A DNA stretch of 64,000 nt from Vulcanimicrobiota bacterium (lineage in GTDB: Bacteria; Vulcanimicrobiota; Vulcanimicrobiia; Vulcanimicrobiales; Vulcanimicrobiaceae): NCBI GenBank assembly GCA_027306785.1, contig DAHUZB010000018.1:1-64000 (forward strand), written 5' to 3'. The translations under genes were made by a program, and so were the position numbers. Position 1 is the first letter of the stretch. The number at the start of each line of letters is the position of its first letter. Positions 31,815 to 39,239 of the stretch are shown here, piece after piece. A model generated the notes under the pieces. The model did no database searches. It worked only from the letters and a program-made list of their open reading frames with translations, and was not told the DNA's origin.

Positions 31815-32636
31815 GTGGAGAACGGTTTCAGCGCGCGGGTGCTCACCGATTCGGTGAGCCCCGCGGGCATTCGTTTGACGACGCTGGAAGTGCGCTTCCC
31901 GCGCTTTGTCCTGAGCGAATTTAACACGCACAGAACGTTTTCTCGAAATTCGAGTTCATCTCGTGCCGTGCCAACCAAGAAAATGATCGAACGCGTGCTG
32001 CAGAATCCCGCCATGCCGGTGGAATGGGGCGTCAACAAACCGGGAATGTCGGCGAGCGAGGCGCTTAGCGATGCGCAAGCGCAAGAAGCAAAAGCTGAAT
32101 GGCTGCGTGCCCGCGACAGCGCCGTGCAGCACGTGCGAAACATGCAGCAATTCAACGTTCACAAACAAGTCGTCAATCGCATGCTCGAACCGTTCATGTG
32201 GCATACCGTGATCGTGACCGCCACCGAATGGGGGAATTTCTTCGCGCTTCGTTGCGCGCCGAATGCGCAGCCCGAGATTCGCGTTGCGGCGGAGCTGATG
32301 CGCGACGCAATGGCGGCGTCGGCGCCGCGTTCCGTCGCGATCGACGAGTGGCATCTGCCGCTCGTGCAAGACGACGAGCGCGATTTTCCGATCGAGGATC
32401 TCAAAAAAATCAGCGCCGCGCGCTGCGCGCGCGTTTCGTACCTCACGCACGACGGCAATCGCGACGTCGATAAGGATATCGAACTCTGCGAGCGTCTGCG
32501 CGCGGATCGTCACCTGAGTCCGTTCGAGCATGTCGCGACGCCGAGCGGCGACGATGGCTCCCACGCGAACTTCCGCGGTTGGGTGCAGATGCGCAAGGAG
32601 ATCGAAGGCGAGCTTCGCTCGATCTCCAGTCTCTAG
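31815..32636 (+). CDS. thyX: FAD-dependent thymidylate synthase ThyX
   Basis: 273 aa from GTG 31815, five bases after the ftsZ stop. Makes dTMP from dUMP with methylene-THF, FAD and NADPH. The ThyX signature RHRxxSxNxxSxR appears as THRTFSRNSSSSRA (first Arg is Thr), as in a divergent ThyX branch; ERVLQNPAMPVEWGVNKPGM and RMLEPFMWHTVIVTATEWGNFFALR also fit that branch. The C-terminal part (ISAARCARVSYLTHDGN, HLSPFEHVATPSG, NFRGWVQMRKEIEG) holds conserved dUMP-binding elements. That 3' part is repeated in degenerate form at 33156-33401. No Shine-Dalgarno; probably translated by coupling to ftsZ. Confidence 0.9.
   Translation: MENGFSARVLTDSVSPAGIRLTTLEVRFPRFVLSEFNTHRTFSRNSSSSRAVPTKKMIERVLQNPAMPVEWGVNKPGMSASEALSDAQAQEAKAEWLRARDSAVQHVRNMQQFNVHKQVVNRMLEPFMWHTVIVTATEWGNFFALRCAPNAQPEIRVAAELMRDAMAASAPRSVAIDEWHLPLVQDDERDFPIEDLKKISAARCARVSYLTHDGNRDVDKDIELCERLRADRHLSPFEHVATPSGDDGSHANFRGWVQMRKEIEGELRSISSL
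32391..32610 (+). repeat. thyX 3' repeat, copy 1 (within thyX)
   Basis: Direct repeat of about 220 bp shared with 33162-33381. By eye the two copies are roughly 85% identical, and most differences are at third codon positions. Copy 1 is the functional 3' end of thyX. Confidence 0.85.
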
Positions 32637-32705
32637 TCGAGTGAAGCCGGTCCGCCTTGGAATAGGGAAAGGGAACTAGCTCACGCTCGGTAACGTTATG
32701 CGCTC

Positions 32706-33119
32706 ATGAAGATCACGAGCTACAGCACCGCACTTGCCGTCACCCTCGCCCTCGTGGCCATCAGCGGCCGGTGGGCGGCCGCGAATCCCGACCGGAATCT
32801 CGTCGTGGTGACAAATAACGCCGACGTCTGCGTCAAAATCGATGCAATTGGTGTCGCAGCTCCGCCGGACGGGAACTTCAGTCGCCCGAACCATGACTGG
32901 GCGCAGGTTGGCCGGTACGAGGAACGCGATGCGGCACCCGGCCAAACGGTCCGTTTCGAGGCGCTCGATGGAGTCCGCGCTCAAGTGTGGGCGAGCCTCC
33001 GTCCTTCCGCCGATTGCCACTCGAAGACCATCGGCGGATCCGGCCCCTATGTGACGCAGGCTCCCCGCGTGCACCTCATTTTCGCGCACCACAGATTCAC
33101 GCAAGTTGCGCTTCTTTAA
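32706..33119 (+). CDS. Hypothetical secreted protein between the two thyX 3' ends
   Basis: 137 aa with a signal peptide (MKITSYSTALAVTLALVAIS, ending AAA) and a mature domain of about 110 residues: NLVVVTNNADVCVKIDAIGV, GQTVRFEALDGVRAQVWASL, DCHSKTIGGSGPYVTQAP, HLIFAHHRF. Two Cys could form a disulfide; beta-rich pattern. No family recognised. It is the only gene between thyX and the second thyX 3' fragment, so it may have arrived with the event that duplicated that end. Start ATG 32706; Shine-Dalgarno not clear. Confidence 0.55.
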   Translation: MKITSYSTALAVTLALVAISGRWAAANPDRNLVVVTNNADVCVKIDAIGVAAPPDGNFSRPNHDWAQVGRYEERDAAPGQTVRFEALDGVRAQVWASLRPSADCHSKTIGGSGPYVTQAPRVHLIFAHHRFTQVALL

Positions 33120-33155
33120 CGCCCGCTAACAACAACCGCGTCACCCCCGCCCGGC

Positions 33156-33401
33156 ATGCCCATCGAGGACTTGAAAAAGATCAGCGCGGCACGTTGCGCG
33201 CGCGTCTCGTACCTCACGCACGACGGCAATCGCGACATCGCAAAAGACGTCGAGCTTTGCGAACGTCTGCGCGCGGATCGACATCTGAGCCCGTTCGAAC
33301 ACGTCGCGACGCCGAGCGGCGACGATGCCTTCCACGCGAACTTCCGCGGCTGGGTGCAGATGCGCAAATCGATCGAACGCGCATTGATCGAGCGACCCTG
33401 A
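33156..33401 (+). pseudogene. thyX 3'-terminal fragment (copy 2)
   Basis: 81 codons from MPIEDLKKISAARCARVSYL to RKSIERALIERP, colinear with the last quarter of ThyX (from FPIEDLKKIS). It lacks the FAD and ThyX-motif regions and so cannot be an enzyme. Its reading frame is open and changes are mostly synonymous (for example GCC/GCG, CGC/CGT, GAG/GAA), so it diverged as part of a working gene rather than by decay in place. Best explained as the displaced 3' end of another thyX allele left by recombination or integration. The gap 33402-33611 after it holds no feature I can support. Confidence 0.85.
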
Positions 33402-33611
33402 AGAAGGTCGTCCAGCGCTTGCTTCGGGTTCGCAAGGAGGACTTGGACCGGGGGCCGAGGCGTAGTCGCAACAAGGGAAGCCCCAGCCAAAGCGATAGCT
33501 GTGATTTAGGGCGCTATTTTCAGAGTTGGATCACGAGGATTTTCGCACGGAGGCAGTCCGGCGTCGTCGCTTATCGTTGCCGAATCGTTTCCCCCCGAGC
33601 ACCGTCGGTCT

Positions 33612-34418
33612 TCATAGAATGTGCTCGGTAAAGTAGCTACGATCCCGGCGACGACGCTCCGCGGCTGGCGTCCAGGCTAGGTATATGCTGTTCCGATAGT
33701 CATCAAGGCTCGCGCAGCGTTTGAGCGATGTCTCGTAGCGCAAGAGCATGGAGGGCTTCATCCCGAGCAAAACCGCGGCGACCGCAGCCACCAACGACGC
33801 CGGAACATGTGAGAGGCTCAGGTTGGCGCTCCAGCCCGCCGCGTCGCGGTGGATTGCCGCGGTCAGCGTGACAGCCGATGAAATACCCTGCCCAACGGCC
33901 GCGATGACGGTAGCAAAACGCCCAGCGCGGACGAGCGCGAAGACCGGCTTCGCTCTTGTCGCGGAATGGCCGATCGGCAAGACGCGGAGCGCGAAGCCGA
34001 GCACGCCTCCGAGGATAGTCGCGAGCGCAAGGCTGATGCGAAGGGTGGAAATGTGCGAAGGCCCCGACGTGGCGGTGCAGGCGAGGAAAAGCCCCGCAGC
34101 GATTGTGGCGAGGTCGACGAGCGTCTCCAGATGATCGCTCGCCTGCTTGCGCTGAATTTCACGACGGGTGGCGTCGGCAAGATATTTTGGCGACACCATA
34201 TTTTCGACGATGCGTTTCTCATTTTGCCACCTGCGCGATTTCTCGTCGACGAAGTCACGACCGAGCGGATGCGGCGCGTATGCATCTTTCTCGTCAACTG
34301 CATCGCGAATGAACTCGCGGATCTCTTCGACGCGTTCGTCGATCAGATCGTCGGGATAACCGCGCAGATAAAAGCGATATTTCGAGAGGTATGCTTCTGC
34401 ATAGCTGACGTGCGGCAT
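33612..34418 (-). CDS. Membrane protein with N-terminal HAAS/DUF1700-like helical domain
   Basis: 268 aa. The N-terminus (YAEAYLSKYRFYLRGYPDDL, IDERVEEIREFIRDAVDEK) resembles the helical HAAS/DUF1700 domain usually encoded just after a PadR regulator, which is the case here (3-base gap). About five hydrophobic segments follow (LVDLATIAAGLFLACT, ISLALATILGGVLGFALRV, FATVIAAVGQGISSAVTL, VPASLVAAVAAVLLGM). Such proteins are thought to sense or process a membrane signal for the PadR partner. GC is lower than in the core genes. It is on the left side of the accessory region. Family assignment is by resemblance. Confidence 0.65.
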   Translation of the reverse strand: MPHVSYAEAYLSKYRFYLRGYPDDLIDERVEEIREFIRDAVDEKDAYAPHPLGRDFVDEKSRRWQNEKRIVENMVSPKYLADATRREIQRKQASDHLETLVDLATIAAGLFLACTATSGPSHISTLRISLALATILGGVLGFALRVLPIGHSATRAKPVFALVRAGRFATVIAAVGQGISSAVTLTAAIHRDAAGWSANLSLSHVPASLVAAVAAVLLGMKPSMLLRYETSLKRCASLDDYRNSIYLAWTPAAERRRRDRSYFTEHIL

Positions 34419-34421
34419 TAA

Positions 34422-34736
34422 CTATGCCTGCCCTCCAAGAAGGGCTTCCATTGAACTGCGAAATTGCGGCCATGCGGATCGCGCGCGGCCGAGGTGCTTG
34501 CGCCCCTTATCGGTTAGGGCCCAAGTCTTCCGCTTTCGCCCTCCATCGAGCGACCAGGTGCCTTCGATTTTACCGCTTGCTTCAAGGCGCGCGAGGGTCG
34601 GATAGAGGGTTCCGTCCGAGAGATCTTGACCAGTCACGTCTCTTACCCGAAGCATCAGACGATAACCGTGATCCGGCCGGCGATCGAGGAGAGCCAGGAT
34701 GGTAAATTCGAGGCTATCGCGGTGGAGCGGCCCCAT
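34422..34736 (-). CDS. PadR-family transcriptional regulator
   Basis: 104 aa. Winged helix typical of PadR: LEFTILALLDRRPDHGYRLM, LSDGTLYPTLARLEASGKIE, GGRKRKTWALTDKGRKHL, with a short C-terminal helix for dimerisation (small PadR subfamily 2). ATG 34736 has GGAGGT just upstream. A good sigma70 promoter on the minus strand lies at 34769-34797. PadR proteins generally repress their own operon, here with the HAAS-type membrane protein, until a ligand or signal releases them. Confidence 0.88.
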   Translation of the reverse strand: MGPLHRDSLEFTILALLDRRPDHGYRLMLRVRDVTGQDLSDGTLYPTLARLEASGKIEGTWSLDGGRKRKTWALTDKGRKHLGRARSAWPQFRSSMEALLGGQA

Positions 34737-34740
34737 GTGA

Positions 34741-34797
34741 TACCTCCGATTTTAGGTACATGCCTCGAAGTATAGGGGTCGATGGCGCTCTCGTCAA
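34741..34797 (-). promoter_or_regulatory. Sigma70 promoter and possible PadR operator
   Basis: On the minus strand: TTGACG (34797-34792), 17-bp spacer, TATACT (34774-34769), near consensus. Downstream, TACCT (34757-34753) and AGGTA (34745-34741) form inverted arms around AAAATCGG, which would overlap the start of transcription and the ribosome site. Operator role is inferred from self-regulation common in PadR systems. Confidence 0.6.
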
Positions 34798-34892
34798 GCG
34801 CGGCATCAGCGCGATTCGAATGGTGCGTGCATCGAGCGATAGAATGGGCTGGGAGCACTTAATTACGAGACGCGCATTTGCGAGGAATAACC

Positions 34893-35252
34893 ATGCAGCA
34901 GGTTGCACTCATGGAGCTCGCGGTCACCAGCGATCTTTTGCCAGCGCTTTCAATGGCGCTGGAACCGTAGGCAGGCGATCGCGCGGTAGTCATCGATCTC
35001 CTAGGTCGTCCATGTGTCGGATTCGCGGTGACACGAATGTTGCGGCGCTTTGCGAGCCTGGGGGCGGGGCGCGGTTCCGCGCTACGGTCCGCTTCATCGC
35101 TTTACGGTGCCTTGGCGCACTTGTGCCGTCGCTCGAATTTCGAGGGTTCAAGAGCATGCTTCTTGATGCCAACCTACCGGATCGAACTCCGTGCGAGCGG
35201 GGCCTTTTCGCGGTGCTTCGTCATCGTGCCGCTCGAGCAAGAAACGATATAA
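34893..35252 (+). pseudogene. Possible broken hypothetical gene with in-frame stop
   Basis: GAGGA lies seven bases before ATG 34893. The frame reads MQQVALMELAVTSDLLPALS, MALEP, then TAG (34968-34970), then AGDRAVVIDLLGRPCVGFAV, TRMLRRF and stays open to 35252. The sequence on both sides of the stop looks protein-like at first but becomes Arg/Ser-rich after about 35050. No family recognised. It could be a decayed gene, a 25-aa peptide, or chance. The remaining stretch 34798-35287 shows nothing else I can support. Confidence 0.25.
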
Positions 35253-35287
35253 AACGTGCATAGGCTGAGACTGCGCTGCGTGTTCAA

Positions 35288-35968
35288 ATGAAAAAGTCGC
35301 CTGGGCGACGCGTGACCCTTGCCGAGCTACAGCTGCGCGTCCGAAACGCGGGGGATTATCTCGGTAAGATGCTTTATTACGAAAAGGCCGCGATTGAAGC
35401 CACGACAGGGATGGGGTACCATCCGGACGAGTATGCGGAGGCATACCGGTGCTATTGCCGCGATCTTGCGAGCTTTGTTGCGCACGCACGCACCGCATGG
35501 AACTATATGCTGCAATCGGTTCCGGACGGAGACGCTCGGCGGTGGCTCGATAGGCGCCTCTTCGAGGACCCGCTCGCGGTTTTTCATCGCGCGCTAGCAA
35601 ACGAAGATCTCCACGATCATGGAATTATTATCGCGGTCGAGCAGCAAGTGAAAGTCGAAGGCGAGGTGACCGTTCCGATCCTTCCTGGCAATCATTCATT
35701 CTCGATGCCGTTACGCGTGTCAGGGTTTGCAGGCGTGACTTTTTACTACAACCTTGAAACTCTCGAGCTAGAGGCTAAAGAGGCGTACGAACGCCTTATC
35801 CCGGTCCTAGGGAAGCAGTCGGTAACCCACCTAGCGTTGAGGTTCTTTGATCTACTAAGTTCCACAGCGAAGAGTGGCATGCGTCGGGGACGATTTACCG
35901 CTGGCTCTGCTAGAGGCGATTCAACCGCATCGGAGTCGGTTCACAACGCGAACCAGACTATTGAGTGA
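35288..35968 (+). CDS. Hypothetical protein of the accessory region
   Basis: 226 aa. Helical N-terminal half (VTLAELQLRVRNAGDYLGKM, LYYEKAAIEATTGMGYHPDE, SFVAHARTAWNYMLQSVPDG), then a more beta-like centre (IIIAVEQQVKVEGEVTVPIL, GVTFYYNLETLELEAKEAYE) and a low-complexity Ser/Arg tail. No signal peptide or membrane segment, no family recognised. Lower GC and different codon use from the core genes. ATG 35288 has no good Shine-Dalgarno. It is on the same strand as the double-GGDEF gene 0.6 kb downstream, but a link is not shown. Confidence 0.55.
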   Translation: MKKSPGRRVTLAELQLRVRNAGDYLGKMLYYEKAAIEATTGMGYHPDEYAEAYRCYCRDLASFVAHARTAWNYMLQSVPDGDARRWLDRRLFEDPLAVFHRALANEDLHDHGIIIAVEQQVKVEGEVTVPILPGNHSFSMPLRVSGFAGVTFYYNLETLELEAKEAYERLIPVLGKQSVTHLALRFFDLLSSTAKSGMRRGRFTAGSARGDSTASESVHNANQTIE

Positions 35969-36117
35969 TTCGGCATATTCCAGTTGGTTGCATCAAACCG
36001 TCGATGTTGGGACCGAGCCAACGGCACGAGCTGCTCTCGTTTCGCCATTAGAAGGCTTTGGATGCAGCGCCCAACTTCATTCAAATCGGTTATAAACTCT
36101 GGCTAGATGGGCGGCCT

Positions 36118-36517
36118 CTAATAGCCGGGATATGGGCCAAGCGACCCCGCCCCGCCATGGTCGGTCTTCCGGGCCCCGATTTCGCGCTTGACATCCAGGG
36201 TCGCACCGCCGACGGCAGCAAAGCCTTCGATTGGCAACCTTTGGGTCGGTGAATGCAAGGCCACGAGGTTGGCTCCGCGCCGGAAATGTGCACCGAATTC
36301 GATCGTAGCGCGATCGGTGCGATGCGCCAACGCCTCGAGAGTCCCAACGAGTCGAGAGCCCTGGATACTTGAGCACCAGGGGCAGCGCGGCGGCAGCTGT
36401 GAAGGTTATAGGATTCGGTCTCAAGCGGGCCTTCAGGACGTCGATCAACCTCCCGAGCATGTTGGCATTCGAGCTGTCGACTATGTCGGTCCAGTCAATT
36501 TTGGCCGCAATAAACAC
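36118..36517 (-). pseudogene. Possible frameshifted hypothetical gene
   Basis: Two minus-strand frames join into one protein-like reading if one base is lost or gained near 36350: MFIAAKIDWTDIVDSSNANM, LGRLIDVLKARLRPNPITFT, AAAALPLVLKYPG in the first frame (start GTG 36517), then SRLVGTLEALAHRTDRATIE, FGAHFRRGANLVALHSPTQR, LPIEGFAAVGGATLDVKREI in the second, ending at 36118. About 133 residues, no family recognised. Could be decay, sequencing error, or coincidence. The rest of 35969-36602 holds no feature I can support. Confidence 0.3.
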
Positions 36518-36602
36518 CGATCGGCATTGCTGGGATAGGAAAAAATACCCATGTAGGCCGTCTTGAATACTTGATTCGACAGGTCGATTTATTGATTAGC
36601 CT

Positions 36603-38873
36603 ATGAAAGCCACAAGATTTGAAATTTTTGCGCAGCGAGCGTCGAAAGAGATTGTAGATCGGCGCGTCTCCTCTGTGATGGTATTTCGGTATCACAACTC
36701 GTCGTGGTATACCTCAAATTCCGCGCCTGCACCACCAGGTTTAGTGGCTGAACTGGATGTGACTCGGAAGCGCGGGGCGAGTTGGCGGCACCCGAACTCG
36801 CGCCGCGCATTCTTCCCCGTAGCAGACCTCGACGCGGTACTTGTTGGTGACTTCCATGATTCACCATCTGCCGCGACGCGCAAGACAGTCGAGGCTCTTG
36901 TTGGCAAATGCCTAGAATCAAGCAAGAATAAATACGCCGCCGATTATAGACCTTTAACGGGCCTACTTAACCGAGAAGCATTCGATGAAATGCTAAGAAC
37001 ACGGATCGCGGCCCAGTCAAAATCGACATCTAGCGGAGAAATTGGCGTTGACCGTTTATCAGCGCTTGCTCTGGTCGCGTTTGATATCGACCATTTTAAA
37101 CAGAAAAATGATACGTTTGGCCATCAATTCGGAGACATTATTTTACGATCCCTTTCTATCCGCTGCGACGAAATTGCATCGAAGTCTTCCGACCTCGCGC
37201 AAGAAATTGTGTTCGCACACCCCGGAGGCGAGGAGTTCTTGGTCCTAGTTTCCGGTTATGACAGCGACGATGCACCTTACAAATTTGCCGAGCGCTTGCG
37301 AGTCGCCGTTTGCGACGCGGATCTTCCATCTGACACCGATTTAGCACGGATGGAACTGTCTACGGTCGACAGAGACTCAGTACCAAGGGACCCAAATGCC
37401 CGACGCGTGAGGATATCATGTGGTGTGGCGTCTCTGGCGCAGGTGACGCAGTCCGAGGACCCGGCTAACATCGTTGCTCTTCTTAAGCGCCGTAGCGACC
37501 GCGCGCTTTACCAAGCAAAACGGAGCGGTAGGAATCGGACTGTCGAATTCTCCAAAATAATTGAGTCGCACGGACGTGTCCTGGAGCATTGCAAGGAGGT
37601 CAATACTGTTGCTATCGACATAGGTACTGAGGTTGGAGTCCAAAATGGGCAAGAATTCTTGATCTACCATCCGCAATACGATGGCGAACAGGAAATGCGA
37701 ATGTCCGATGGTCGTTCGGAGGTCGTCCTCGGCAAATATCCGCGGCGGGTCATGGGGCGTTTAGTCGTCTTTGATCCGCAATCTGATATTGCGTTCTGCG
37801 AGGTGCCTAGCGAAAATGGGTCCGGTATTGAGATTCCCGCTGGGGCCCGATTAGCAAATGTCCCTCTCGGAGCAATCGGCCACTTGATACCGGCATCTGG
37901 CGCGCCGATGACGAAAATTATTGCACTAGCTGGGCGCGTAAAATTAATTCAAGAGCTCAACGCGAAACGTAGTGCAGGTAGCGCCACCGTTGTTGCATCG
38001 ATAGGCGTCGACAAGCTTAACGATTTGACTATAATGCGCGGCGTCGCGCACGTGAACGCGATACTTGCAGGCTTGTACGAAGAAATTGTTCGTGCGGTCG
38101 GAAGACAATTTGCGTTCCAGCTTTCGCCGGTCGAACTAGCGTTTATCGTCGCGCCTGGGCATGATTTTGACACCCTAGTCGATGGGCTTCGCAGATCAGC
38201 GACCGAACTTGGCATCTCCGTAGCCGTCGGTTACTCGAAGCCACCGTGGTCTTTCTTAGGAGCGGAAGCGGTTGACGCTGACGCTCAGGTCGAGCAGGCG
38301 CGATATGCCTTAGCAATGGCATTGAGCGATGAGGGCGGGAGCATCCATGAATTTTCTGAGGATACGATGTGGCACACGCTCTTGGCTGCGAGACGGAAAG
38401 GAGATTATAGAGGCGGTGCCGTCGATTATGAACGATTCCTTTCGTGGGGAGCGAAAGATCCGAAGTTCGATAACCAGGCCGCGTTGTTGCTTATCCGGAT
38501 TGACCGGAGAGATGAGGCACTTGCATGCATCTCTAGAGCTGTGATTGCCGAACGCGACGCGGTAAAGGCAGGCGCCGATACCGGGATGCTCGCGGTGTTC
38601 CTTGCTAACGAAATGATCCTTAACGCAAATAGAAATCTTGAAAAGGCTCTCTCGAGCTTTTTGGAGGCGCTAAGACTGGATTTTGATTTTAAGGAGCCGT
38701 ATGCTACTGCGGCTGTCGAAATTCTTTCGTCAGCATCCTACGCAAAGCTGCCTTTGTATGAAGCGATTGGTAGCGGTGAGCTTATCGGAAAATTCGATGC
38801 GGTTAACCGTGCGGAGCTTTCGGCTGGAGCGGCCGCGTGGCTTGAGGCCCTCGACTCAGGTGGATCGGCATAG
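36603..38873 (+). CDS. Large GGDEF protein with second degenerate GGDEF-like domain and C-terminal helical repeats
   Basis: 756 aa, the largest accessory gene. Residues about 110-300 are a GGDEF domain: DIDHFKQKNDTFGHQFGD (GTP and metal site) and HPGGEEFLVLVSG (active GGEEF loop), interrupted by an insertion (residues 240-265) before RRVRISCGVASL; ALYQAKRSGRNR ends it. Residues about 310-430 are beta-rich (EVGVQNGQEFLIYHPQYDGE, GRLVVFDPQSDIAFCEVPS, IPAGARLANVPLG). Residues about 440-575 repeat the GGDEF outline (ATVVASIGVDKLNDLTIMRG, ELAFIVAPGHD, GISVAVGYSKPPW, QVEQARYALAMA) without the signature loop. The end is TPR-like (DNQAALLLIRIDRRDEALAC, FLEALRLDFDFKEPYATAAV). No membrane segment. Makes c-di-GMP or another cyclic dinucleotide by inference. 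AT-richer than its surroundings. Confidence 0.8.
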   Translation: MKATRFEIFAQRASKEIVDRRVSSVMVFRYHNSSWYTSNSAPAPPGLVAELDVTRKRGASWRHPNSRRAFFPVADLDAVLVGDFHDSPSAATRKTVEALVGKCLESSKNKYAADYRPLTGLLNREAFDEMLRTRIAAQSKSTSSGEIGVDRLSALALVAFDIDHFKQKNDTFGHQFGDIILRSLSIRCDEIASKSSDLAQEIVFAHPGGEEFLVLVSGYDSDDAPYKFAERLRVAVCDADLPSDTDLARMELSTVDRDSVPRDPNARRVRISCGVASLAQVTQSEDPANIVALLKRRSDRALYQAKRSGRNRTVEFSKIIESHGRVLEHCKEVNTVAIDIGTEVGVQNGQEFLIYHPQYDGEQEMRMSDGRSEVVLGKYPRRVMGRLVVFDPQSDIAFCEVPSENGSGIEIPAGARLANVPLGAIGHLIPASGAPMTKIIALAGRVKLIQELNAKRSAGSATVVASIGVDKLNDLTIMRGVAHVNAILAGLYEEIVRAVGRQFAFQLSPVELAFIVAPGHDFDTLVDGLRRSATELGISVAVGYSKPPWSFLGAEAVDADAQVEQARYALAMALSDEGGSIHEFSEDTMWHTLLAARRKGDYRGGAVDYERFLSWGAKDPKFDNQAALLLIRIDRRDEALACISRAVIAERDAVKAGADTGMLAVFLANEMILNANRNLEKALSSFLEALRLDFDFKEPYATAAVEILSSASYAKLPLYEAIGSGELIGKFDAVNRAELSAGAAAWLEALDSGGSA

Positions 38874-38904
38874 CTGCCCAGCTGGCCGCTCCTTCGCGCC
38901 GGCA

Positions 38905-39239
38905 GCGCGCCAGGGCGTGGTGACCGCCGATCTCCACCCCGAATACAGCGAATTGCTCGGCCTCACGAGCGGGGCTATCCGATCATCGCCAACCGCACGA
39001 TCGACTCCGTGCTGCGGGTCGACGACGCGCACACGATCGTGCTCGGCGGGCTGATGCGCGATTTCAGCAGCGAGACGATTTCACGGATTCCGGGGCTCTC
39101 GAGCATCCCGGTACTCGGCGCGTTCTTCAAGAACAAGCAGCGTCACCACGAGCGCGACGAGATCGTCTTTTTCATCACGCCGCACGTGATCCGGCCGACT
39201 CCGATCCGCGCTACCCGCTCTGGCGCCGCGTTACCGTGA
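38905..39239 (+). pseudogene. Secretin (GspD/PilQ-type) C-terminal remnant, truncated and frameshifted
   Basis: First frame: ARQGVVTADLHPEYSELLGL, TS (38905 to about 38970). After an indel at AGCGGGGCTATCC the next frame continues YPIIANRTIDSVLRVDDAHT, IVLGGLMRDFSSETISRIPG, LSSIPVLGAFFKNKQRHHER, DEIVFFITPHVI. This is the conserved C-terminal beta-barrel of type II/IV secretins. The N0-N3 domains and most of the barrel are missing, replaced by the accessory region that ends at 38873. A remnant of a once intact outer-membrane secretin gene, cut by insertion or deletion. The 3' end overlaps the convergent gene at 39211. Confidence 0.85.

Follow-up and report, generated by a model that had tools for sequence, protein, structure and literature searches.

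The 756-aa protein encoded at positions 36,603–38,873 of the forward strand is probably, as far as its sequence can tell, a soluble diguanylate cyclase that contains an internal and probably regulatory pseudo-GGDEF domain and is carried as single-gene horizontal cargo. It is rare, mobile and apparently undescribed, although signalling proteins of its general type are familiar. The gene lies in the window analysed here, a stretch of 64,000 nucleotides from a Vulcanimicrobiota bacterium, on which an earlier note had been made from the sequence alone.

Results

Analysis of the window sequence confirmed that the 756-aa open reading frame is a real gene, and since both of its full-length homologues open with the same M-K/R N-terminus, its start is also supported. 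The family as considered here has three members, the window copy and one copy each from an Acidobacteriota genome (G223) and a Pseudomonadota genome (G767), whose total lengths in ascending order are 752, 756 (the window copy) and 761 aa. Its parts, all on the forward strand, run from an N-terminal domain through a GGDEF domain (GGDEF1), a beta-rich domain and a degenerate GGDEF domain to a TPR-like end. Outside GGDEF1 the window protein has no above-threshold Pfam match, and a PADLOC scan of the protein gave zero matches. The N-terminal domain (residues 1–112; 36,603–36,938) comprises about 110 residues that are 21–28% conserved across the three members, with no Pfam or PDB match. The beta-rich domain (residues 316–430; 37,548–37,892) is the best-conserved part outside GGDEF1, at 40–45% identity among members; its likeness to FlgT_C (PF16538) is faint, covering only the first 26 residues at 12.6–14.2 bits against a cut-off of 27 (E 0.06–0.19), and PDB profile searches with this domain and the N-terminal one returned nothing convincing. 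The C-terminal region (residues 596–756; 38,388–38,870) matches TPR_2 in two of the three members (best E 1.5e-5) and is helical in a poor single-sequence model; the full-length single-sequence AlphaFold model had a pLDDT of 35.5, too poor for use. We recognised no membrane segment, the maximum 19-residue hydropathy being 1.2 in the window protein and at most 1.4 in the two homologues. These results support a soluble protein with an active and a degenerate GGDEF domain in one chain. They agree with the beta-rich linker and TPR-like end that the earlier note had described, and of its statement that no sensory or membrane domain is present the membrane part holds, whereas the sensory part is too strong given the conserved residues 1–110.

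GGDEF1 (residues 109–316; 36,927–37,550) is matched by PF00990 (4.5e-21, 75.7 bits against a cut-off of 23.8), by TIGR00254 (7.1e-24, 84.4 bits against a cut-off of 37.4) and by GGDEF structures in the PDB. As the earlier note had read from the letters, all of the cyclase motifs are present, among them DIDHFKQKND and GGEEF, and an insertion lies near the end of the domain. GH..GD is present as well, and the insertion, of about 25 aa before the SIGVA strand (approximately residues 238–266; 37,314–37,400), proved to be common to all three members and specific to the family. D161, D163, N169, D170, G173, H174, G177, D178 and the GGEEF active-site loop (residues 208–212; 37,224–37,238) are invariant in the family, so that each member has the GG[D/E]EF loop and the first-strand metal-binding aspartates (D161 and D163) of a diguanylate cyclase. 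The RxxD inhibitory site is common in diguanylate cyclases but not obligatory. It is absent from GGDEF1, where the three members have KSSD, KRLD or KEAK instead, and product inhibition through this motif is therefore doubtful. In the window copy the GGEEF loop is preceded by His206-Pro207 rather than by the usual Arg-aromatic pair (the homologues have R-L), and for this reason it may be a weaker cyclase.

The residues that contact the base point to the product. In the Hypr enzyme GacA the residue that contacts the base is reported to be a serine, where canonical enzymes have aspartate; the combination of serine with GGEEF is reported to be inactive, and that of aspartate with GGEEF to be active solely as a diguanylate cyclase (PMC6456294). 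Asp178 and GGEEF occur together in all three members, which makes c-di-GMP the expected product, and we regard this as a good prediction. A new cyclic nucleotide, which the earlier note had imagined, is disfavoured by the same residue pair and seems unlikely. The host genome has 18 other GGDEF matches, and hence a c-di-GMP network for such an enzyme to plug into.

The second region (residues 445–595; 37,935–38,387) has no GGDEF signature. As a single sequence it was detected neither by Pfam nor by an HMM built from GGDEF sequences, and in a single-sequence profile comparison 27 of 200 shuffles scored equally well. When a profile of all three members was compared with a reference profile of 17 GGDEF sequences collected in this analysis, the global alignment was collinear over 144 columns with a score of 16.7, which none of 300 column shuffles reached (best 11.5). 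In this alignment the family-invariant G480, N485 and L488 fall on G173, D178 and L181 of GGDEF1, and SPVELAFIVAP of the window copy is placed opposite the strand GGEEFAVLLP. AlphaFold, run on the single sequence of the region, gave a low-confidence model (pLDDT 54) in which a leading helix is followed by strands and helices in the order E-H-H-E-E-H-E-H-E, the one reported for GGDEF domains (PMC6456294). When 350,542 PDB chains were searched by Foldseek with this low-confidence model, the 12 best matches were all GGDEF-domain proteins (best E 3.5e-4, TM approximately 0.4–0.5). The model alone would not be convincing, but the three lines of evidence agree and support a degenerate GGDEF-like fold for residues 445–595, bearing out the earlier suggestion that this region keeps the fold outline without the signature.

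The metal-ligand positions of this second domain are not aspartate, the GGEEF loop is replaced (by SPVEL in the window copy), and no RxxD precedes the replacing loop in any of the three members, so that the conserved I-site by which PelD/CdgI-type c-di-GMP receptors are recognised is missing. Lacking the catalytic aspartates, the GGDEF loop and RxxD, the domain is predicted neither to work as a cyclase nor to be an I-site receptor of the standard type; the role of nucleotide sensor that the earlier note had offered for it is a possible one, with these same losses against it.

Full-length relatives of the gene were found in only two other genomes, from two other phyla, and its distribution is very sporadic. 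The Acidobacteriota homologue (P0002) is 31% identical to the window protein (7e-79) and the Pseudomonadota homologue (L164:9184-11439:-) 29% identical (9e-62). When the C-terminal half was used as query, 386 genomes of the phylum of the Acidobacteria record (G223) gave a single full-length homologue, 398 genomes of the phylum of the Alphaproteobacteria record (G767) likewise gave one and 370 genomes of the phylum of a Chloroflexi record gave none, counts which are lower bounds as few candidates per genome were scored. The other 18 genomes of the order of G223 have no homologue, and 378 genomes of the order of G767 gave no further family member. Closer to the window, a search of 117 genomes of the class with the C-terminal 436 residues matched nothing beyond the genome of the window itself, and at E 1e-20 the 149 genomes of the phylum gave no second match to the whole protein. 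In plasmid and phage collections the whole protein matches only in its GGDEF part, and the C-terminal parts tested match nothing. Exact peptide patterns of the family had no match in genome and viral contigs. Viral matches to a two-row alignment were rejected as generic GGDEF domains, and weak matches to the TPR region in other genomes, which look like generic TPR, were not counted. AHPGG[DE]EF also proved wrong as a mark of the family, a scan of genome contigs giving 90 stretches of which the GGDEF-coding ones were generic. The two homologues turned out not to be the ordinary housekeeping cyclases that the earlier note had named as the case against it.

In both same-genus genomes available (L040 and L041) a type IV pilus operon lies between thyX and an HU gene, and encodes two T2SSE-family ATPases, a PilC-type T2SSF protein, a pilin, a prepilin peptidase, PilM and a secretin. 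In the window an island (32,640–38,911) stands in this place. It is followed at 38,911–39,218, some 40 bp downstream of the GGDEF gene, by what remains of a pilQ-like secretin gene, approximately 100 codons from its 3' end, with a frame break and with 84–85% protein-level identity to L041. Two copies of the thyX 3' end are present (32,388–32,610 and 33,159–33,381, 87% identical), a pattern that looks like the footprint of an integration into the terminal part of this gene; the stretch between the copies holds no recognised integrase. Pilus ATPase, PilC, PilM and pilin genes were not found in the 2.36 Mb sampled of the 3.14-Mb genome, in which the gaps were mostly no longer than about 8 kb and sigma-factor and secretin queries did match. 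The lineage therefore seems to have lost its type IV pilus operon.

The composition of the gene differs from that of its surroundings at all three loci. Around the window gene GC, otherwise about 65%, drops to 54%, and at third codon positions the gene has a GC fraction of 0.52 against 0.70–0.86 in most of its neighbours. The two homologues have 52.9% GC in surroundings of 61.1% and 49.9% in surroundings of 65.7%, so that the family genes stand at 50–53% and their surroundings at 61–66%. A search of the neighbourhoods of the homologues, which the earlier note had called for, gave no neighbour common to the three loci. The inspected neighbours of the G767 copy have metabolic or signalling roles. 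PADLOC identified a PDC-S41 gene (L149:4666-6675; 942 bits), which encodes a Schlafen group 3 helicase and is a candidate for defence, at a distance of about 1.6 kb from the G223 copy; an HNH gene lies beyond it. Among the three loci this candidate is the sole link to defence. Low GC, the lack of common neighbours and sporadic occurrence make it well supported that the family gene is single-gene horizontal cargo, and the horizontal acquisition that the earlier note had assumed is upheld by the GC dip, by the absence of relatives in the phylum and by the pilus operon found in the same slot within the genus.

The same-strand gene for a 226-aa orphan protein (35,288–35,968) is itself a candidate gene of the island. 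Two clear homologues of its product are encoded in other genomes of the family-rank group: in G111 the stretch also contains QatC-like and RmrA-like genes, and in G091 a serine recombinase and a HipA-like kinase lie nearby. No homologue of the 756-aa protein was found in the 19 kb read around each of these, and homologues of the 756-aa protein likewise occur without the 226-aa gene. An operon of the two was rejected given the gap of about 635 bp and the unlinked homologues, and the two-gene system proposed in the earlier note is not sustained; the genes look like separate passengers.

Discussion

We consider it probable that this protein is a diguanylate cyclase under the control of its own additional domains. 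GGDEF1 would dimerise and condense two GTP into c-di-GMP, and because a proper RxxD site for product inhibition is missing, control of its activity probably lies with the other domains. A signal from a partner or ligand would be received by the N-terminal domain together with the TPR-like tail, and the dead second GGDEF domain would serve within the chain for docking or regulation, pairing either with GGDEF1 or with a different GGDEF protein. Contacts between one GGDEF domain and another are known for degenerate GGDEF domains (PMC5635695). The regulatory role of the dead domain is proposed by analogy, and the signal input and downstream effect of the cyclase are putative.

The presence of a lone low-GC gene in three phyla, its extremely sporadic occurrence, the PDC-S41 and HNH genes in the neighbourhood of the G223 copy and a slot that differs between congeners are also what might be seen if the gene were a single-gene defence against phages or plasmids, in which the TPR and N-terminal parts would sense invasion and GGDEF1 would pass a nucleotide alarm to host effectors. 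This is unlikely, however, as the gene has no PADLOC match of its own, no effector or nuclease is fused to it or conserved beside it, a scan that was not exhaustive recognised no defence genes beside the window or G767 copies, the predicted product is a housekeeping messenger, and the family is missing from the phage and plasmid collections beyond its GGDEF part. It is rather improbable that the protein is an ordinary accessory cyclase acquired by chance, with the second domain a functionless relic. That domain is the least conserved part of the protein (20–22% identity among the three members), well below the beta-rich domain, but all three distant members, of similar length, have retained this dead domain with its G....N..L core, which argues for selection. 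We think it very unlikely that the gene is a mobile single-gene system of defence or conflict that signals by a nucleotide, in which the active and dead palms form one regulated unit and the dead palm and TPR region sense an invader-linked ligand. Cas10 has one active and one dead palm in a single chain, but a pairing of the two palms within this chain as in Cas10, with a different nucleotide as product, is extremely improbable here, since the order of the two palms is the reverse of that in Cas10, each of the three members has the base-contact residues that are canonical for c-di-GMP, and no Cas or CARF genes were recognised nearby.

A rare family that combines an active GGDEF, a dead GGDEF and a TPR region and passes between phyla as a lone gene would offer a test case for the control of a live GGDEF domain by a dead one in cis. 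It would also allow a test of whether c-di-GMP enzymes can be accessory cargo with a purpose beyond biofilm control.

Among known systems, Panoptes OptS (mCpol) and Cas10 share with this protein the palm fold superfamily and the synthesis of a nucleotide second messenger. The GGDEF and Cas10 palm folds are related, and mCpol is minimal and nearly without a GGDEF motif (PMC12657218). The partner of mCpol is a 2TM-beta effector gene, whereas an mCpol domain with such a gene adjoining it was not recognised at any of the three loci; PADLOC 2023, which may predate Panoptes, gave no match. Hypr enzymes such as GacA have the GGDEF fold in common with the family, but combine serine at the position of Asp178 with GGDEF, whereas all three members have aspartate with GGEEF and hence lack the mark of a cGAMP synthase (PMC6456294). 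With the canonical diguanylate cyclases PleD, WspR, SiaD and DgcB, GGDEF1 shares its fold, its catalytic motifs and the Asp/GGEEF specificity pair. Unlike them, the 756-aa protein has no detected receiver, PAS or GAF domain, has lost the I-site and adds a dead GGDEF, a beta-rich domain, a TPR region and the insertion of about 25 aa. Diguanylate cyclases are for the most part regulators encoded on the chromosome, in which a sensor domain is recognised. E. coli CdgI, CsrD and PdeR, together with FimX and LapD, likewise carry a degenerate GGDEF domain, which in the known cases binds or docks. In those proteins it stands alone or is fused to EAL, whereas in the 756-aa protein a dead GGDEF without an I-site is fused to an active GGDEF domain.
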